From positions 3,658,001 to 3,722,000 of the forward strand of contig NZ_CP139421.1 in the NCBI RefSeq assembly GCF_034119865.1: a DNA stretch of 64,000 nucleotides, written 5' to 3'. The notes below the pieces were generated by a model. It ran no database searches. It was not told the DNA's origin and saw only the letters and a list, made by a program, of their open reading frames with translations. This DNA comes from Algoriphagus sp. NG3. GTDB taxonomy: Bacteria; Bacteroidota; Bacteroidia; Cytophagales; Cyclobacteriaceae. This document shows, piece by piece, positions 58,929 to 63,939 of the stretch. The position numbers and the translations under genes are program-made. Within the stretch, counting starts at the first letter, position 1, and every line of letters begins with the position of its first letter.

Positions 58929-60014
58929 TTATTTCATATTTGGCAAGCTGACTTTGAAGGTGGTACTATCTCCAAAAACAGAGTTCAATTCAATCTTACC
59001 TCCCATCTGCTCTACCGCTTCCTTTACCATATACAGGCCTAGACCCGTCCCCACATTTTTCTGTGTAGCTCGGGAAAAAAGGTTAAACACATCAGGATGA
59101 TGCTTCTCTTCAATACCTATCCCATTGTCAGACAGCAGAATTACAGCTTCTGTCTCATTGACCTCCACCGTCAAATCAATCTTTTTATCCTCAACACCGG
59201 ATTTTTGAAATTGTACGGCATTGCTAAAAAGGTTATTGAAAATAACCCTTATTTTAGAATCATCTGAGGTAAACGTACAAGGTTGATTGATGTCTATTTC
59301 TACTTGAATATGCTCAATGTTGAACTTCTTTCTGTAGGCAGTCAATTGCTGGTCGACAATTTCAGAAAACTTAATGTCAGTAAGCTTATTCTCGATTTTG
59401 GTGGATCTGTAAAAGTCCAGCATTTTATAGATAAAATCGTCCAACTTATCCGTAGCCGTATCTATCATTTCAAAATACTCCAAAGCATCCGGGTCTTTAA
59501 GTTCCATTTTGGCAAGTTTGGAAACCCCGGATATACTCATCAGTGGCCCCCGCAATTCATGAGATAAACTATAGACAAACTGATTCATCTCTGAATGGAG
59601 CTTTTGGAGCTTTTGATTTTTATCCTTCAGCTCCCGCCTCATGAAATAGATATCGGCAGCGTTTTTAATAGAATTCTTGATCTGCTCTATATTCCAGGGC
59701 TTATCTATAAATCTATAAACCTCGCCTTTGTTGATTGCGTCGATCACAGAGGCTATATCGGAATATCCTGTCAGCAGAATCCGGATTGGGTCAGGATTGA
59801 ATTTTACCAATTCCTCAAAAAACTCCGTACCGGTCATTCCCGGCATCCGTTGATCAGCAATCACTACATGAATTTCCTCTTCCCTGGCGATTTTCAATCC
59901 CTCCTCAGCATCTATTGCTGTAAGTATTTTGAAGTCCTTCCTTAAAGTGGCTCGAAATGATTTGAGATTGTTATCTTCATCATCAATATAGAGAACATGA
60001 ATTTTATCATTCAT
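58929..60014 (-). CDS. Receiver-histidine kinase hybrid (REC-HisKA-HATPase), soluble
   Basis: 361 aa, no membrane helix. Receiver domain 1-115: 'HVLYIDDEDNNLKSFRATL' (acidic pair), D54 in 'VVIADQRMPGMTG', 'RILLTGYSDIASVIDAINKG' and Lys105 in 'RFIDKPWN'; it is of the RpfG-like receiver type. A coiled-coil linker ~122-145 follows. HisKA: H152 in 'VYSLSHELRGPLMSISGV'. HATPase: 'NNLFSNAVQFQKSG', 'LLSDNGIGIEEKHHP' and 'NVGTGLGLYMVKEAV'. No DNA-binding or enzymatic output. Last gene of a four-gene overlapping operon (8-bp overlap with the 7TMR kinase); it probably receives phosphate from that kinase and passes it on. Confidence 0.92.
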   Translation of the reverse strand: MNDKIHVLYIDDEDNNLKSFRATLRKDFKILTAIDAEEGLKIAREEEIHVVIADQRMPGMTGTEFFEELVKFNPDPIRILLTGYSDIASVIDAINKGEVYRFIDKPWNIEQIKNSIKNAADIYFMRRELKDKNQKLQKLHSEMNQFVYSLSHELRGPLMSISGVSKLAKMELKDPDALEYFEMIDTATDKLDDFIYKMLDFYRSTKIENKLTDIKFSEIVDQQLTAYRKKFNIEHIQVEIDINQPCTFTSDDSKIRVIFNNLFSNAVQFQKSGVEDKKIDLTVEVNETEAVILLSDNGIGIEEKHHPDVFNLFSRATQKNVGTGLGLYMVKEAVEQMGGKIELNSVFGDSTTFKVSLPNMK

Positions 60015-62145
60015 AGCTTTGAGTGCTTTGATGTATAGGAAGGGTTATTTTAAAAGTAGTTCCTTGACCCTCTTCAGTAATCACTTCCAGTGTACCTTTA
60101 TGATTCTCAATAATAGAATAAACTATTGAAAGCCCCAAACCTGTCCCTTTCCCAACGGCCTTGGTGGTAAAGAAGGGTTCAAATATTTTTTCCTTGACAT
60201 GCCTAGGGATTCCAGGGCCATTATCACTTATCTCAATAGTAACGTACTGTTCAGCGCTTCGGGTCCGGATCTCTATTTTAGGATCGGTGACGGAATCTAA
60301 GTGATCACTGAGCGCATGGACTGCATTTGTAATGATATTCATAAACACCTGATTGAGCTTTCCGGCCAGACATTCTACCAGAGGAAGTTCCCCAAAGTCT
60401 CTAATGATTCTTATCTTACCAGGTGTAGAACTGTTCAATAAGATCAAGGTACTGTTAATTCCATCATGCAAGTCAACTTTTTTGACATCCTGCTCATCTA
60501 CCCGGGAAAAAATCCTCAACCCCTTTACTATCTCTACAGTTCTTCTGGCCCCATCATCCATTCCTTTAAGCAGCTGGTCAACTTCCTCCAATACATAATC
60601 CAATTCCAGATCCTCTTCCAGTTCTTTAGCTTCTTTTTGAGAAGCAGGTGTAAACTCGTTCAAAGCAGTTGTTCTATAGAACTGGATGATCTCCATTATA
60701 TCCTTTATGTCACGTTTTAGAGGCATGATATTGGAGCTGACAAAATTTATAGGATTGTTAATCTCATGCGCTATACCTGCCGTCAGCTGACCTAGAGAAG
60801 CCATTTTCTCCTGATTTACCAATTGGCTTTGGGTGTTTTGTAGGTTTTTTAGTGCCTGCTCTAATTCATCAGTTCTAAGTCTCACTTTCTCCTCTAGCAT
60901 ACTATTCTGCTCAATCACAAGTTTCTCGTTGGCAGCAAGAGCTTGGAGGCGCTCTATATGTTCTTTTTCCTTTTCTTTTTTAAGTATATTGATTTTATCT
61001 GCCAAAGCTAAAGACAGTAAGATAGCCTCTAGGGCAGTACCTATCAGCATGGGCAAATTTGCATAAAAACCAAGATTAAATAACCCTTGTGTTTGAAGAA
61101 TATAGAAAATGATACCTATCAAAAAAAAACTCCAAGCAATTAGAAAATAAGATGCAGATCGCATCTTTTTCCTGACTAATAAAATAGCTATTGAAAAGAA
61201 AACAATAACAACTAAAAACCCATTTATATCAGTAATTGTATAACTTATATCTATAAATCCAAGCAGCCTAAGAAAAAAAGCCAATAAGTACAACCCCCAT
61301 AAAAACATTAACAAATAATCAAAAAAGGGAAGCTTTTGTTTAGTGCTTAAAAAATTCCGAACAAAAGGTATAGCAAAAACACTGGCCAATGTAGTAAACC
61401 CAATGATACTAAACTCATAAAGAACTGGGTTTTGATAAAGAAAGTACCAATAAGAATGTCCTGAAATAGAAAGCTGCGCTAACGCTATAAACAAAACATA
61501 CATACTATAAAACAAATACAAGGTATCTAAAACAGAAAAATACAAGAACAGATTGTAAAAAAACAACGCCAGCATAATTCCAATATAAATATTGATAAAC
61601 ACCGTCCTTTTATTAAAACTAGAAAAAAAACCTTTTTCACTAGAAAGCAACCCAATGAATCTGATTGGTTCAGTTGAATTGATTTTCAACAATACAAAAG
61701 GCAAAAAATCGTCTTCACTTTCAATTTTAAAAGTGGGATTTGGATTTCCAAAATCATTAGAATTAAAAAAATCAATACCGTCTTTACCACTATATACTAA
61801 GGAACTGTCTTTTTTAACCGTAAACAACTCCACACTCCTAAATGAAGGATTATTAATTTCTAAATAATACTCCTGAACATCGCTCGACAAACTTGAACTC
61901 AAATCCAGACCTATGTAAACCGTATCCGACCGTACTCCAACATCAACACTACTATGACTAGAGTAGTCATCAAGTTTTAGCATTTCTCCCACTATACCTA
62001 CTCCATCATCAAGAATAAAATAACGGTCAATTTGACGCACCCCATCATTATCCAATACCCCTAAATACTTATATAAAGGAAGTATTATGATAAAAATTAT
62101 CATAATTACAATAAGGACATTGAATACATCAATCCGCTTCATCAT
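60007..62145 (-). CDS. 7TMR-DISM sensor histidine kinase
   Basis: 712 aa. An N-terminal helix ('[19 protein letters not shown]') is followed by an extracytoplasmic 7TMR-DISMED2-like domain (~35-175). Then come seven membrane helices (~180-385, starting '[20 protein letters not shown]') and a coiled coil ('[20 protein letters not shown]'). HisKA is '[20 protein letters not shown]' with the phospho-His. The HATPase has '[13 protein letters not shown]', '[20 protein letters not shown]' and '[20 protein letters not shown]'. 7TMR-DISM receptors sense small extracellular ligands. The start overlaps the upstream GNAT-like gene by 4 bp and the end overlaps the receiver-kinase gene by 8 bp. Confidence 0.94.
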
Positions 62146-62846
62146 TTAGTTGAATTCTTATTAACGATCAGATCAAACAAAACCATCATTTCTCCTTTGG
62201 GGCCAGACTCCAATTTTTGATTAACTACATTATCCCTAAGCTGAAATATAAATTCACGCTCAGTACTATCTGCAAATGGTAAGTTGTCAACATCATCAAT
62301 AGCTAAGACCGTGGCAATCAATCCTTCCTTAGGATATAAAAAAGTCCCATTATCTCCCAAGCTACTAATTACTTCATACCCTACTTTTTTTGATATTCGA
62401 ACAGTAGCAGGAGAACATAAAGCCATTAATTTTTTAAGTCCAAATTGAGAAGCGATAGCAACCCCGACTTTAACTAAATAAATACTCCCAATCCCATAAC
62501 CTGCTACCTCTCTACTGTTCCACAAACCGCAATACTCAGCAACTTCCAATTCACCAAATTGACTCATGTATGAAGCGATACCTGGATCAACTTCTGAAAT
62601 AGCATCTTCCAATGGAAGTGGATACCCCTTACTTTTCAGCTGAACTCGCCCACCTCCCAAAACTCTAAAGTCGTCCATGGACTCAAAAAGGATCAGATAG
62701 GTATGTGGATTATTTGTCCAAGATCTATCAGCAGAGGTCACCTTGGTAACTCCGTATGACTCAAGAACCTTTAAATGCCCTGCAATGTATTTTTCTGTAG
62801 CCTCAGTATCTTCGACAACCCTGATTACCCGAACCCTAACTTCCAT
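62142..62846 (-). CDS. GNAT-fold acyltransferase-like protein (resembles N-acyl/autoinducer synthases)
   Basis: 234 aa, no signal peptide. 'YLILFESMDDFRVLGGGRVQ' followed by 'KGYPLPLEDAISEVDPGIAS' resembles the R-x-x-x-P-L-P-x-E region of LuxI/FeeM-type synthases. 'AEYCGLWNSREVAGYGIGSI' and 'LVKVGVAIASQFGLKKLMAL' correspond to the acyl-CoA/ACP-binding strand and helix. 'CSPATVRISKKVGYEVISSL' is the typical strand-helix after it. The fold call is from pattern reading and is moderately sure; activity is unproven. It sits between an E1-like adenylating gene (11-bp overlap) and a sensor kinase gene (4-bp overlap), so a role in making or modifying a ligand is plausible. Confidence 0.6.
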   Translation of the reverse strand: MEVRVRVIRVVEDTEATEKYIAGHLKVLESYGVTKVTSADRSWTNNPHTYLILFESMDDFRVLGGGRVQLKSKGYPLPLEDAISEVDPGIASYMSQFGELEVAEYCGLWNSREVAGYGIGSIYLVKVGVAIASQFGLKKLMALCSPATVRISKKVGYEVISSLGDNGTFLYPKEGLIATVLAIDDVDNLPFADSTEREFIFQLRDNVVNQKLESGPKGEMMVLFDLIVNKNSTK

Positions 62847-63939
62847 AACTCATCTTTGATATCCGCTCCAGATCAACATAAAACCTTCCTGAATCCAGTT
62901 GATTTCCAAGAAGGATCATTCTAGAAAAATAGCCACATGCTCCTCCTCCTAGTATCACCGAAGATGCTAATTGGGGCCAAGATGATATACTCTTCCCGAT
63001 TTCCCCAATGCTTCTCTGGGCACGAGAGGATAGTTTTTCAAAACTCAATAGTGACATAAGAATATCCGTTCTTTGCTGTGGAAGTTTCCGCAAAATCTCT
63101 GATTCCTCACCAAACTTCTCCAACAGCCCATGTAATATCAATCTGTCCGGCTCTAAATCAAACCGCTCAACATCAATCATACCTCTGTCACTAGTATCCA
63201 TCAAAACAGGGACTCCTAATTCCTTGGCTTTGATCCTGCTCTTGAGTTTCACTTCCAAATTATCACATTCTTCGATCAAAAGGTCAAGCTGGCCGTCCTG
63301 GCAGAAGAATTGATCAATATTCTCATCATGAACTCCTTCGCTGAATAACACTACCTTGAGATAGGGGTCAATTTCTGCTATTTCCCTGGCCGCAATTACG
63401 GACTTTTTTACCCCCAAATTATGGACACCTGTTCTGATCCTGTTCAAATTACTCAATTCCAATGTATCGAAGTCTGCTAGCCTAAGTTCTCCACAGCCTC
63501 TTTCCAAAGCCAAAGTCAGTGCGACGCTTTGCCCAACTGAGAGCCCTATTATGCCGATTTTCTTTTTCGACAATACCCTTTGCTCCTCCTCTGTGATGAC
63601 ATACCTGTTCCTTATCGTACGGACAGTGACATAATCTTCTTCAGGAAGCAAATGGACAAGACAGTGACGCCACGGATAATAAACCCAATTCCCGAAAAGC
63701 GCAGGAGAAAGCCCCCCAAAATGATCATGAACGGCAAGGTCTAAGTCCTCAACACTAAACTTTTTTTGAGGATTCCGAAGTTTAATCAAATCTCCTACCT
63801 GAGAAGCAATTTCATCATAAATCAATAGAGTAGGATCGCTAATAAATTCCTGAAAATCACTGCTTGAGGCACTATCTATGCCACTAAATATCAACGGTTC
63901 ATACACTTCCTTATTGGAAGGATCCACTTGTATAGACAT
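62836..63939 (-). CDS. ThiF/E1-like adenylating enzyme (Rv1355c-type, stand-alone)
   Basis: 367 aa. Residues ~1-115 are an unassigned N-terminal domain. The E1/ThiF domain starts 'KKKIGIIGLSVGQSVALTLA' (ATP loop G-L-S-V-G-Q, 132-137), then 'ELRLADFDTLELSNLNRIRT' (D156, D158, N166, R167), 'LGVKKS' with the conserved Lys, and 'LDLLIEECDNLEVKLKSRI' (D226). No CxxC zinc pairs and no obvious ubiquitin-like substrate or E2/JAB gene nearby. I recall Rv1355c-like proteins joining this kind of domain to a nitroreductase domain; that part is absent here. First gene of the window-end operon; upstream sequence (63940-64000) is AT-rich with no clear promoter. Confidence 0.8.
   Translation of the reverse strand: MSIQVDPSNKEVYEPLIFSGIDSASSSDFQEFISDPTLLIYDEIASQVGDLIKLRNPQKKFSVEDLDLAVHDHFGGLSPALFGNWVYYPWRHCLVHLLPEEDYVTVRTIRNRYVITEEEQRVLSKKKIGIIGLSVGQSVALTLALERGCGELRLADFDTLELSNLNRIRTGVHNLGVKKSVIAAREIAEIDPYLKVVLFSEGVHDENIDQFFCQDGQLDLLIEECDNLEVKLKSRIKAKELGVPVLMDTSDRGMIDVERFDLEPDRLILHGLLEKFGEESEILRKLPQQRTDILMSLLSFEKLSSRAQRSIGEIGKSISSWPQLASSVILGGGACGYFSRMILLGNQLDSGRFYVDLERISKMSYGS

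Follow-up and report, generated by a model that had tools for sequence, protein, structure and literature searches.

Co-exchange of an acyltransferase and a kinase sensor half in a Bacteroidota operon points to a probable quorum-sensing-like system with a predicted oxazolone-type signal

A 64,000-nucleotide stretch of the 5.89-Mb, single-contig genome of Algoriphagus sp. NG3 (contig NZ_CP139421.1, positions 3,658,001 to 3,722,000; hereafter the window) carries four tightly packed minus-strand genes for a ThiF-like (E1-type) carboxylate adenylase/cyclase of 367 amino acids (aa) (62836..63939), an acyltransferase of 234 aa resembling N-acyl amino acid synthases (62142..62846), a 7TMR-DISM sensor histidine kinase of 712 aa (60007..62145) and a hybrid kinase of 361 aa (58929..60014). 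We found that the acyltransferase and the sensor half of the 712-aa kinase behave as one exchangeable specificity cassette, located at approximately 60946..62846, and that the whole unit is probably best explained as quorum-sensing-like signalling by an N-acyl amino acid of the oxazolone type. The original prediction for this DNA, made from the letters alone, had read the operon as a cassette for producing and perceiving a signal. This reading is now supported, chiefly because acyltransferase and sensor half vary together across 44 syntenic loci. The four open reading frames (ORFs) and their overlaps of 11, 4 and 8 bp are likewise borne out by the ORF coordinates. Across the 44 loci, the window included, all junctions were tight, with a largest gap of 11 bp, and the three junctions overlapped in 36/44, 38/44 and 28/44 loci, counts that may be overstated because the starts were taken as the mechanically earliest ones. 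The tight four-gene arrangement is beyond chance.

The 44 loci all share the same flanking pyrophosphatase gene and were retained from 50 loci with all six genes after length and distance filters had removed L050, L069, L070, L071, L076 and L142. Acyltransferase distances correlated at 0.95 with those of the seven-transmembrane (7TM) part of the kinase, at 0.85 with the periplasmic part, which is near saturation, and at 0.93 with the whole sensor half (residues 1-400, comprising both parts; 60946..62145), compared to only 0.58 with the catalytic half (residues 440-712; 60010..60828), which follows the species rather than the acyltransferase. The partial correlation between acyltransferase and sensor half was 0.83 (p 0.001, the lowest value that 999 permutations can give) after control for the catalytic half, hybrid kinase, receiver and pyrophosphatase. 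When the sensor half and the other parts were controlled for, the acyltransferase gave partial correlations of −0.14 (catalytic half) and −0.01 (hybrid kinase). In 15 Dyadobacter loci, in which such a pyrophosphatase flank was not seen, the partial correlations were similar, at 0.88 (sensor half) and −0.21 (catalytic half).

Tree comparison pointed in the same direction. The acyltransferase and sensor trees had 30/41 splits in common, and 2/21 well-supported acyltransferase splits were contradicted by the sensor tree. Against the tree built from the catalytic half, hybrid kinase (HYB), receiver (REC) and pyrophosphatase (PPA), the acyltransferase tree had 20/41 common splits and 9/21 contradicted ones, and the sensor tree had 19/41 common splits. 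The window acyltransferase and sensor half clustered with Cyclobacterium, Lunatimonas and near kin (cassette clade), while the window catalytic half, hybrid kinase and receiver clustered with other Algoriphagus and same-genus genomes (genus clade). In approximately unbiased (AU) tests performed on 29 of the 44 loci, the genus clade was rejected by the acyltransferase, the sensor half and ThiF, with log-likelihoods lower by 343, 376 and 77, respectively; it was present in the catalytic-half tree (support 99) and in the HYB+REC tree (support 100). Conversely, the cassette clade was present in the sensor tree (support 90) and was rejected by the catalytic half, HYB+REC and ThiF. The presence of an oxidase domain, found in 6/44 loci, required a single change on the acyltransferase and sensor trees, 3 changes on the tree of ThiF residues 1-200 and 4 changes on the catalytic-half and HYB+REC trees.

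Identity profiles located the exchanged tract. Between L143 and L074 (Echinicola salinicaeni), blocks of 40 were 80-100% identical in the hybrid kinase, receiver and kinase core, and identity dropped to 16-65% from ThiF residue ~200 to kinase residue ~400; the oxidase domain is found in L143 and not in L074. Litoribacter populi (L054) and L. ruber (L060) showed a similar drop without an oxidase difference. The identity step in the kinase falls at residues ~360-400, and the cassette also covers part of ThiF or of the oxidase domain in some species pairs. Among 85 close pairs (mean flank identity of at least 0.83; thresholds 0.68 and 0.55), which share loci and hence are not independent, acyltransferase and sensor identities were both high in 70 and both low in 13, with acyltransferase identity falling to 0.39-0.62. 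A high acyltransferase with a low sensor identity (0.53 and 0.55) was observed in 2 pairs, and the reverse combination in none. One of the 13 low pairs, L144-L146, represents within-group divergence and not exchange. Rate variation alone was rejected as a cause of these patterns, as acyltransferase conservation in pairs without an exchange is mostly similar to or higher than that of the kinase core (0.94 compared to 0.92 between the window and L035). Different acyltransferase/sensor groups occur within one genus.

The 234-aa protein carries the acyltransferase fold of N-acyl-amino-acid and acyl-homoserine-lactone (AHL) synthases (GNAT/FeeM/AHL-synthase), on which the original prediction hinged. 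The acyltransferase of the oxazolone pathway has a fold of this FeeM/AHL-synthase type, and the window protein qualifies on homology and fold, with the activity predicted. Profile comparison with families on both sides identified it as a remote homolog of the TrzA family (probability 93%, E 3.2e-7), while a comparison against a single TrzA-like protein was insignificant (probability 3.5%). There was no Pfam match above cut-off, no NCBIfam match and no convincing sequence match in the PDB. The closest named relative, from Algoriphagus sp. AGSA1, is 94% identical, and no relative was found among plasmid records. Two candidates from elsewhere fell away: a GNAT protein encoded next to a solitary ThiF on a Streptomyces plasmid (L158) had no recognizable similarity, and the neighbour in L156, tried as a TrzA-like protein, proved not to be TrzA-like. 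Separately, a protein on a Streptomyces plasmid (L157:5128-6996) combines a region of weak, sub-threshold acetyltransferase/FeeM matches with a ThiF domain without oxidase, and its gene adjoins one for a beta-ketoacyl-acyl carrier protein synthase 3.

The 367-aa protein matches ThiF (PF00899, 66.1 bits) and aligns with actinobacterial proteins of the Rv1355c family. It scored 439 bits against NCBIfam NF005901 (Rv1355c family; model positions 6-337 of 722), below the curated cut-off of 476, compared to 734-737 in the same-genus relatives G082, G130 and G336. It represents the N-terminal half of the TrzS/Rv1355c architecture and ends before the flavin-dependent oxidase half. Residues D156, N166, R167, K179 and D226 were invariant in 88/88 ThiF proteins of at least 330 aa, with the window counted and L087 left out. 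D226 (codon 63262..63264, minus strand) would be the counterpart of the adenylation residue D217 of Mycobacterium smegmatis TrzS, as judged from the EECD motif in actinobacterial relatives, which stand in for the M. smegmatis sequence in the alignment. The family match and D226 suggest that the window protein may act as the ThiF-like, ATP-dependent cyclase with an adenylation Asp that the oxazolone pathway employs. A housekeeping MoeB/ThiF identity was rejected; generic ThiF is matched more strongly by two other proteins of the genome, and the window protein fits the Rv1355c family. The desaturase of the pathway is missing at the window locus, and a search of the same genome with the oxidase half of a relative, run without a positive control, did not find it; the oxidase half is fused to ThiF in 39/101 related loci. 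Because the oxidase is missing, we did not file the window locus as a full member of the oxazolone pathway.

The assignment of the first two genes to biosynthesis and of the last two to sensing and phosphotransfer, both parts of the original prediction, thus held, the latter through the 7TMR-DISM, receiver, HisKA and HATPase_c domains. In the 712-aa kinase, PF07695 (126.9 bits), HATPase_c (94.4 bits) and an intact H-box with the phospho-acceptor H460 place the protein in the 7TMR-DISM kinase class, with HisKA (20.3 bits, cut-off 26.9) and a periplasmic DISMED2 (17.4 bits, cut-off 22) remaining sub-threshold. The 361-aa protein consists of a receiver (D54), HisKA (H152) and HATPase_c without an output domain. 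A fifth gene, divergently transcribed 376 bp upstream of the operon and outside the window (L004:6317-6790), codes for a lone receiver of 157 aa that is 53% identical to the hybrid-kinase receiver over 146 residues, which indicates that the two are paralogs. The H-box motif was kept in 95/97 7TM kinases, the receiver Asp motif in 91/91 and the hybrid-kinase H-box pattern in 82/88. No shared motif could be settled by eye in the divergent promoter region of 9 loci. Three genes past the lone receiver, also outside the window, lies a gene for a REC-PglZ response regulator (L004:8436-10040), which we take to be PorX-like and which is a candidate output.

The linkage extends far beyond the window. 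We assembled 101 Bacteroidota loci: the best 80 of 183 confirmed when genome contigs were scanned with the acyltransferase, 20 further loci and that of the window. At least one species is probably counted twice (L112 and L134, whose contigs share a length of 786,830), and some loci are cut by contig ends. These range from Cyclobacteriaceae to Dyadobacter, Pedobacter and Chitinophagaceae. The neighbourhood comparison proposed with the original prediction found the ThiF and acyltransferase genes conserved together with the 7TM kinase, which lies on the same strand within 6 kb of the acyltransferase in 96/101 loci; a receiver of <200 aa was present in 91/101 (90 on the opposite strand) and a hybrid kinase in 88/101. 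The slot beside the acyltransferase is held by ThiF only in 50 loci (including L087, the cut end of a probable fusion), by a ThiF-oxidase fusion in 39, by a flavin adenine dinucleotide (FAD) oxidase in 6, and by a broken or cut ThiF, an S-adenosylmethionine (SAM) methyltransferase or an ICMT-family methyltransferase in 2 each. Pfam was run on 5 of the 10 non-ThiF slots (L111, L113, L130, L131 and L135), the others being assigned by similarity. The acyltransferase was present in 36/148 genomes of the family and in 13/395 genomes across the phylum. A strong Rv1355c-type ThiF (E below 1e-40, the next matches being 5e-32 or weaker and covering the oxidase half or the generic ThiF core) was found in 11/395, and the acyltransferase adjoins it in 11/11. 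In the remaining two genomes with the acyltransferase (G270 and G523), an ICMT-family gene occupies the slot. The unit is thus scattered yet tightly linked, being present in few genomes with its genes side by side.

Several loci depart from the common arrangement. Five loci (L135-L139) carry an FAD oxidase and a different histidine-kinase gene in place of the 7TM kinase; they represent a distant cousin system with an acyltransferase 26-33% identical and PAS domains in the scanned kinase (L135). Loci of Mongoliibacter, Arthrospiribacter and Indibacter (L069, L070, L071 and L076) keep the receiver, ThiF, acyltransferase and 7TM kinase, and the hybrid kinase is absent there. In L109, L112, L114, L129 and L132-L134 the acyltransferase comes first and ThiF stands between it and the 7TM kinase, and the Cyclobacterium qasimii ThiF gene (L050) is split into two ORFs in the assembly. 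In the 15 Dyadobacter loci (L073, L078-L081, L085, L089 and L096-L103) the oxidase domain has a mean distance of 0.55 compared to 0.25 for the acyltransferase.

The gene identities, linkage, catalytic residues and co-exchange of synthase and sensor half, all read from the sequences, are consistent with the following pathway, in which the product chemistry, ligand binding, phosphate flow and action between cells are predicted. The 234-aa enzyme, which probably sets the identity of the product, would join an acyl group to an amino acid, and ThiF would then use ATP to adenylate the carboxylate of this N-acyl amino acid and close an oxazolone-type neutral ring. A fused flavin oxidase would desaturate this ring in many relatives; since no oxidase half was found in the genome, the window product would be the saturated ring or a derivative. 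The enzymes replacing ThiF in its slot (SAM and ICMT-family methyltransferases and FAD oxidase) could act on an N-acyl amino acid, and the methyltransferases and FAD oxidase may finish the product in its place, with the cyclase and the methyltransferases presumably all acting on the carboxylate. The sensor half of the 7TMR-DISM kinase would recognize the product, and the catalytic half would hand phosphate on to the hybrid-kinase receiver and/or to the divergent lone receiver. The output would act from outside the operon, through a relay of receiver proteins without output domains fed by a generic kinase core. We regard it as likely that the kinase has as its ligand an N-acyl amino acid derivative produced by the operon; for action of this product from cell to cell, the arguments appear evenly balanced.

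The biosynthetic half of this pathway is already known from actinobacteria and proteobacteria (PMC12856293, PMC10404671), and related N-acyl tyrosine clusters have been described (PMC12479983). TrzS (Rv1355c) together with the N-acyltransferase TrzA is reported to produce N-acyl tryptazolones, and the D217A substitution in M. smegmatis TrzS to abolish the cyclized product (PMC12856293). TrzA-TrzS (Rv1356c-Rv1355c of mycolic-acid actinobacteria), along with TyzACB and OxzAB, offers a close parallel: the window acyltransferase is a remote homolog of the TrzA type with a FeeM/AHL-synthase fold and adjoins a ThiF cyclase of the NCBIfam family of TrzS; the adenylation Asp of TrzS appears conserved in the window ThiF, and the full ThiF-oxidase fusion occurs in many Bacteroidota relatives. 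Unlike these systems, the window unit is without the oxidase half and joined to sensor kinases, and the ThiF slot in Bacteroidota can hold methyltransferases or an FAD oxidase.

Signalling systems offer a second set of parallels. The fold resembles that of the LuxI-type synthases BjaI, RpaI, MesI and LasI, making a signalling-type acyl-amide product plausible. Unlike LuxI systems, the partner is a membrane kinase instead of a LuxR regulator, an extra enzyme would act on the carboxylate, and a Pfam autoinducer-synthase (LuxI) match was absent from the window protein and from 27/27 acyltransferase members scanned with E up to 1. In CqsA/CqsS and LqsA/LqsS, as here, the synthase gene lies beside a membrane histidine kinase that detects the product; the synthase family and signal chemistry differ. 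In the agr and com specificity groups of Gram-positive bacteria, the signal-determining gene and the kinase sensor half exchange together and the catalytic half stays; agr and com use peptides, and the variable synthase here is a small-molecule acyltransferase. A quorum-sensing system encodes a synthase and its cognate receptor together and has them co-evolve, and the unit agrees with this in linkage and co-variation, with adjacency partly remaining as a possible cause.

Two variants leave most of the proposed pathway intact, and both appear possible, if doubtful. First, the oxidase-less ThiF may make another product, e.g., the N-acyl amino acid converted to an ester, amide or thioacid, and this would be the real signal. 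The missing oxidase half and the empty, uncontrolled search of the genome would fit such a product, as would the general ability of ThiF-type enzymes to activate carboxylates for various acceptors. TrzS is reported, however, to cyclize first, with the cyclized saturated compound accumulating under oxygen limitation or with an impaired oxidase (PMC12856293), which speaks against this variant. Second, the product might be sensed only in or on the producing cell, the kinase serving as a metabolite gauge with feedback on synthesis; this is compatible with synthesis, cyclization and recognition as proposed above. A 7TM sensor could bind a membrane-dissolved lipid from either side, and in actinobacteria tryptazolones are described as more abundant in the cells, though acyl-tryptophan is found mainly in the supernatant (PMC12856293). 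The distinct acyltransferase/sensor groups within one genus also resemble the intercellular agr and com systems rather than a private gauge.

It is improbable that the kinases sense an outside cue such as stress or lipid state and control an oxazolone-type lipid with another role, e.g., in defence or membrane function. Proteobacterial oxazolones are reported to be induced by subinhibitory antibiotics and the Mycobacterium tuberculosis tyz locus to be linked to the oxidative-stress response (PMC12856293), and no transporter gene was noticed among the conserved members of the unit. Such a cue would provide no evident reason for the sensor to co-vary with the type of acyltransferase rather than with its own catalytic half.

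Equally hard to sustain is the view that co-exchange is a recombination effect, the conserved flanks (ThiF core and kinase core) acting as homology arms for any sequence between them without a match between ligand and receptor. In its favour, acyltransferase and sensor half directly follow each other in most loci, and the identity steps sit within or next to conserved stretches. Against it, the acyltransferase shows a higher correlation with the 7TM part than with the periplasmic part, which is physically closer though near saturation, and no close pair combined a low acyltransferase with a high sensor identity. ThiF, equally adjacent, fits the catalytic-half+HYB+REC+PPA tree (30/41 splits in common) over the acyltransferase tree (24/41) or the sensor tree (21/41), an argument tempered by ThiF moving along in some cases, as seen in its rejection of the genus clade.

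Several points weigh against a quorum-sensing-like system built on the acyltransferase/sensor cassette. With the two contiguous in most loci, an exchanged tract could carry both without a functional match. A weak partial correlation (0.27, p 0.001) persists between acyltransferase and receiver, and ThiF is an intermediate case, with partial correlations of 0.69 to the sensor half and 0.22 (p 0.001) to the hybrid kinase. A further 16 fusion loci gave the acyltransferase a partial correlation of just 0.40 (p 0.002) with the sensor half, compared to −0.31 with the catalytic half. The pairwise distances are uncorrected. The cassette clade is neither present in the acyltransferase tree nor rejected by it (p-AU 0.076), and ThiF rejects both clades alike. 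The tested clades were named after the trees had been inspected, so that the clade-free tests (partial correlations and close pairs) weigh more. Generic acyltransferases score near FeeM in the fold comparison, and 6/88 hybrid kinases fail the H-box pattern. A plain oxazolone without desaturation may hydrolyse easily, acid and alcohol sensitivity having been reported (PMC12856293), and export is not a given because tryptazolones are commoner inside actinobacterial cells according to the same report.

The kinase-linked synthase-receptor arrangement appears new, while the biosynthetic half and synthase-receptor signalling as such are known. Among the matches listed in the open-licence literature, mostly at title and abstract level, no report linked the oxazolone pathway or the acyltransferase to a 7TMR-DISM kinase, and the words "kinase", "two-component" and "receptor" are absent from the main text of the TrzAS and TyzACB papers (PMC12856293, PMC10404671). 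The TrzAS authors note a likeness to signalling molecules and neighbouring cyclic di-GMP genes, leave the role open, and describe the physiological role of bacterial oxazolones as a major unresolved question (PMC12856293). There is an even chance, in our estimate, that the loci represent a Bacteroidota-specific signal class of N-acyl amino acids, with interchangeable finishing enzymes and dedicated 7TMR-DISM kinases whose sensor half is traded alongside the synthase. If so, oxazolones would be the signals of its largest group, which would answer what oxazolones are for, and a receptor encoded beside the pathway and exchanged with the acyltransferase would open this role to direct tests in environmental bacteria. 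Bacteroidota would then also have their own quorum-sensing system, and 7TMR-DISM kinases an assigned class of ligand.

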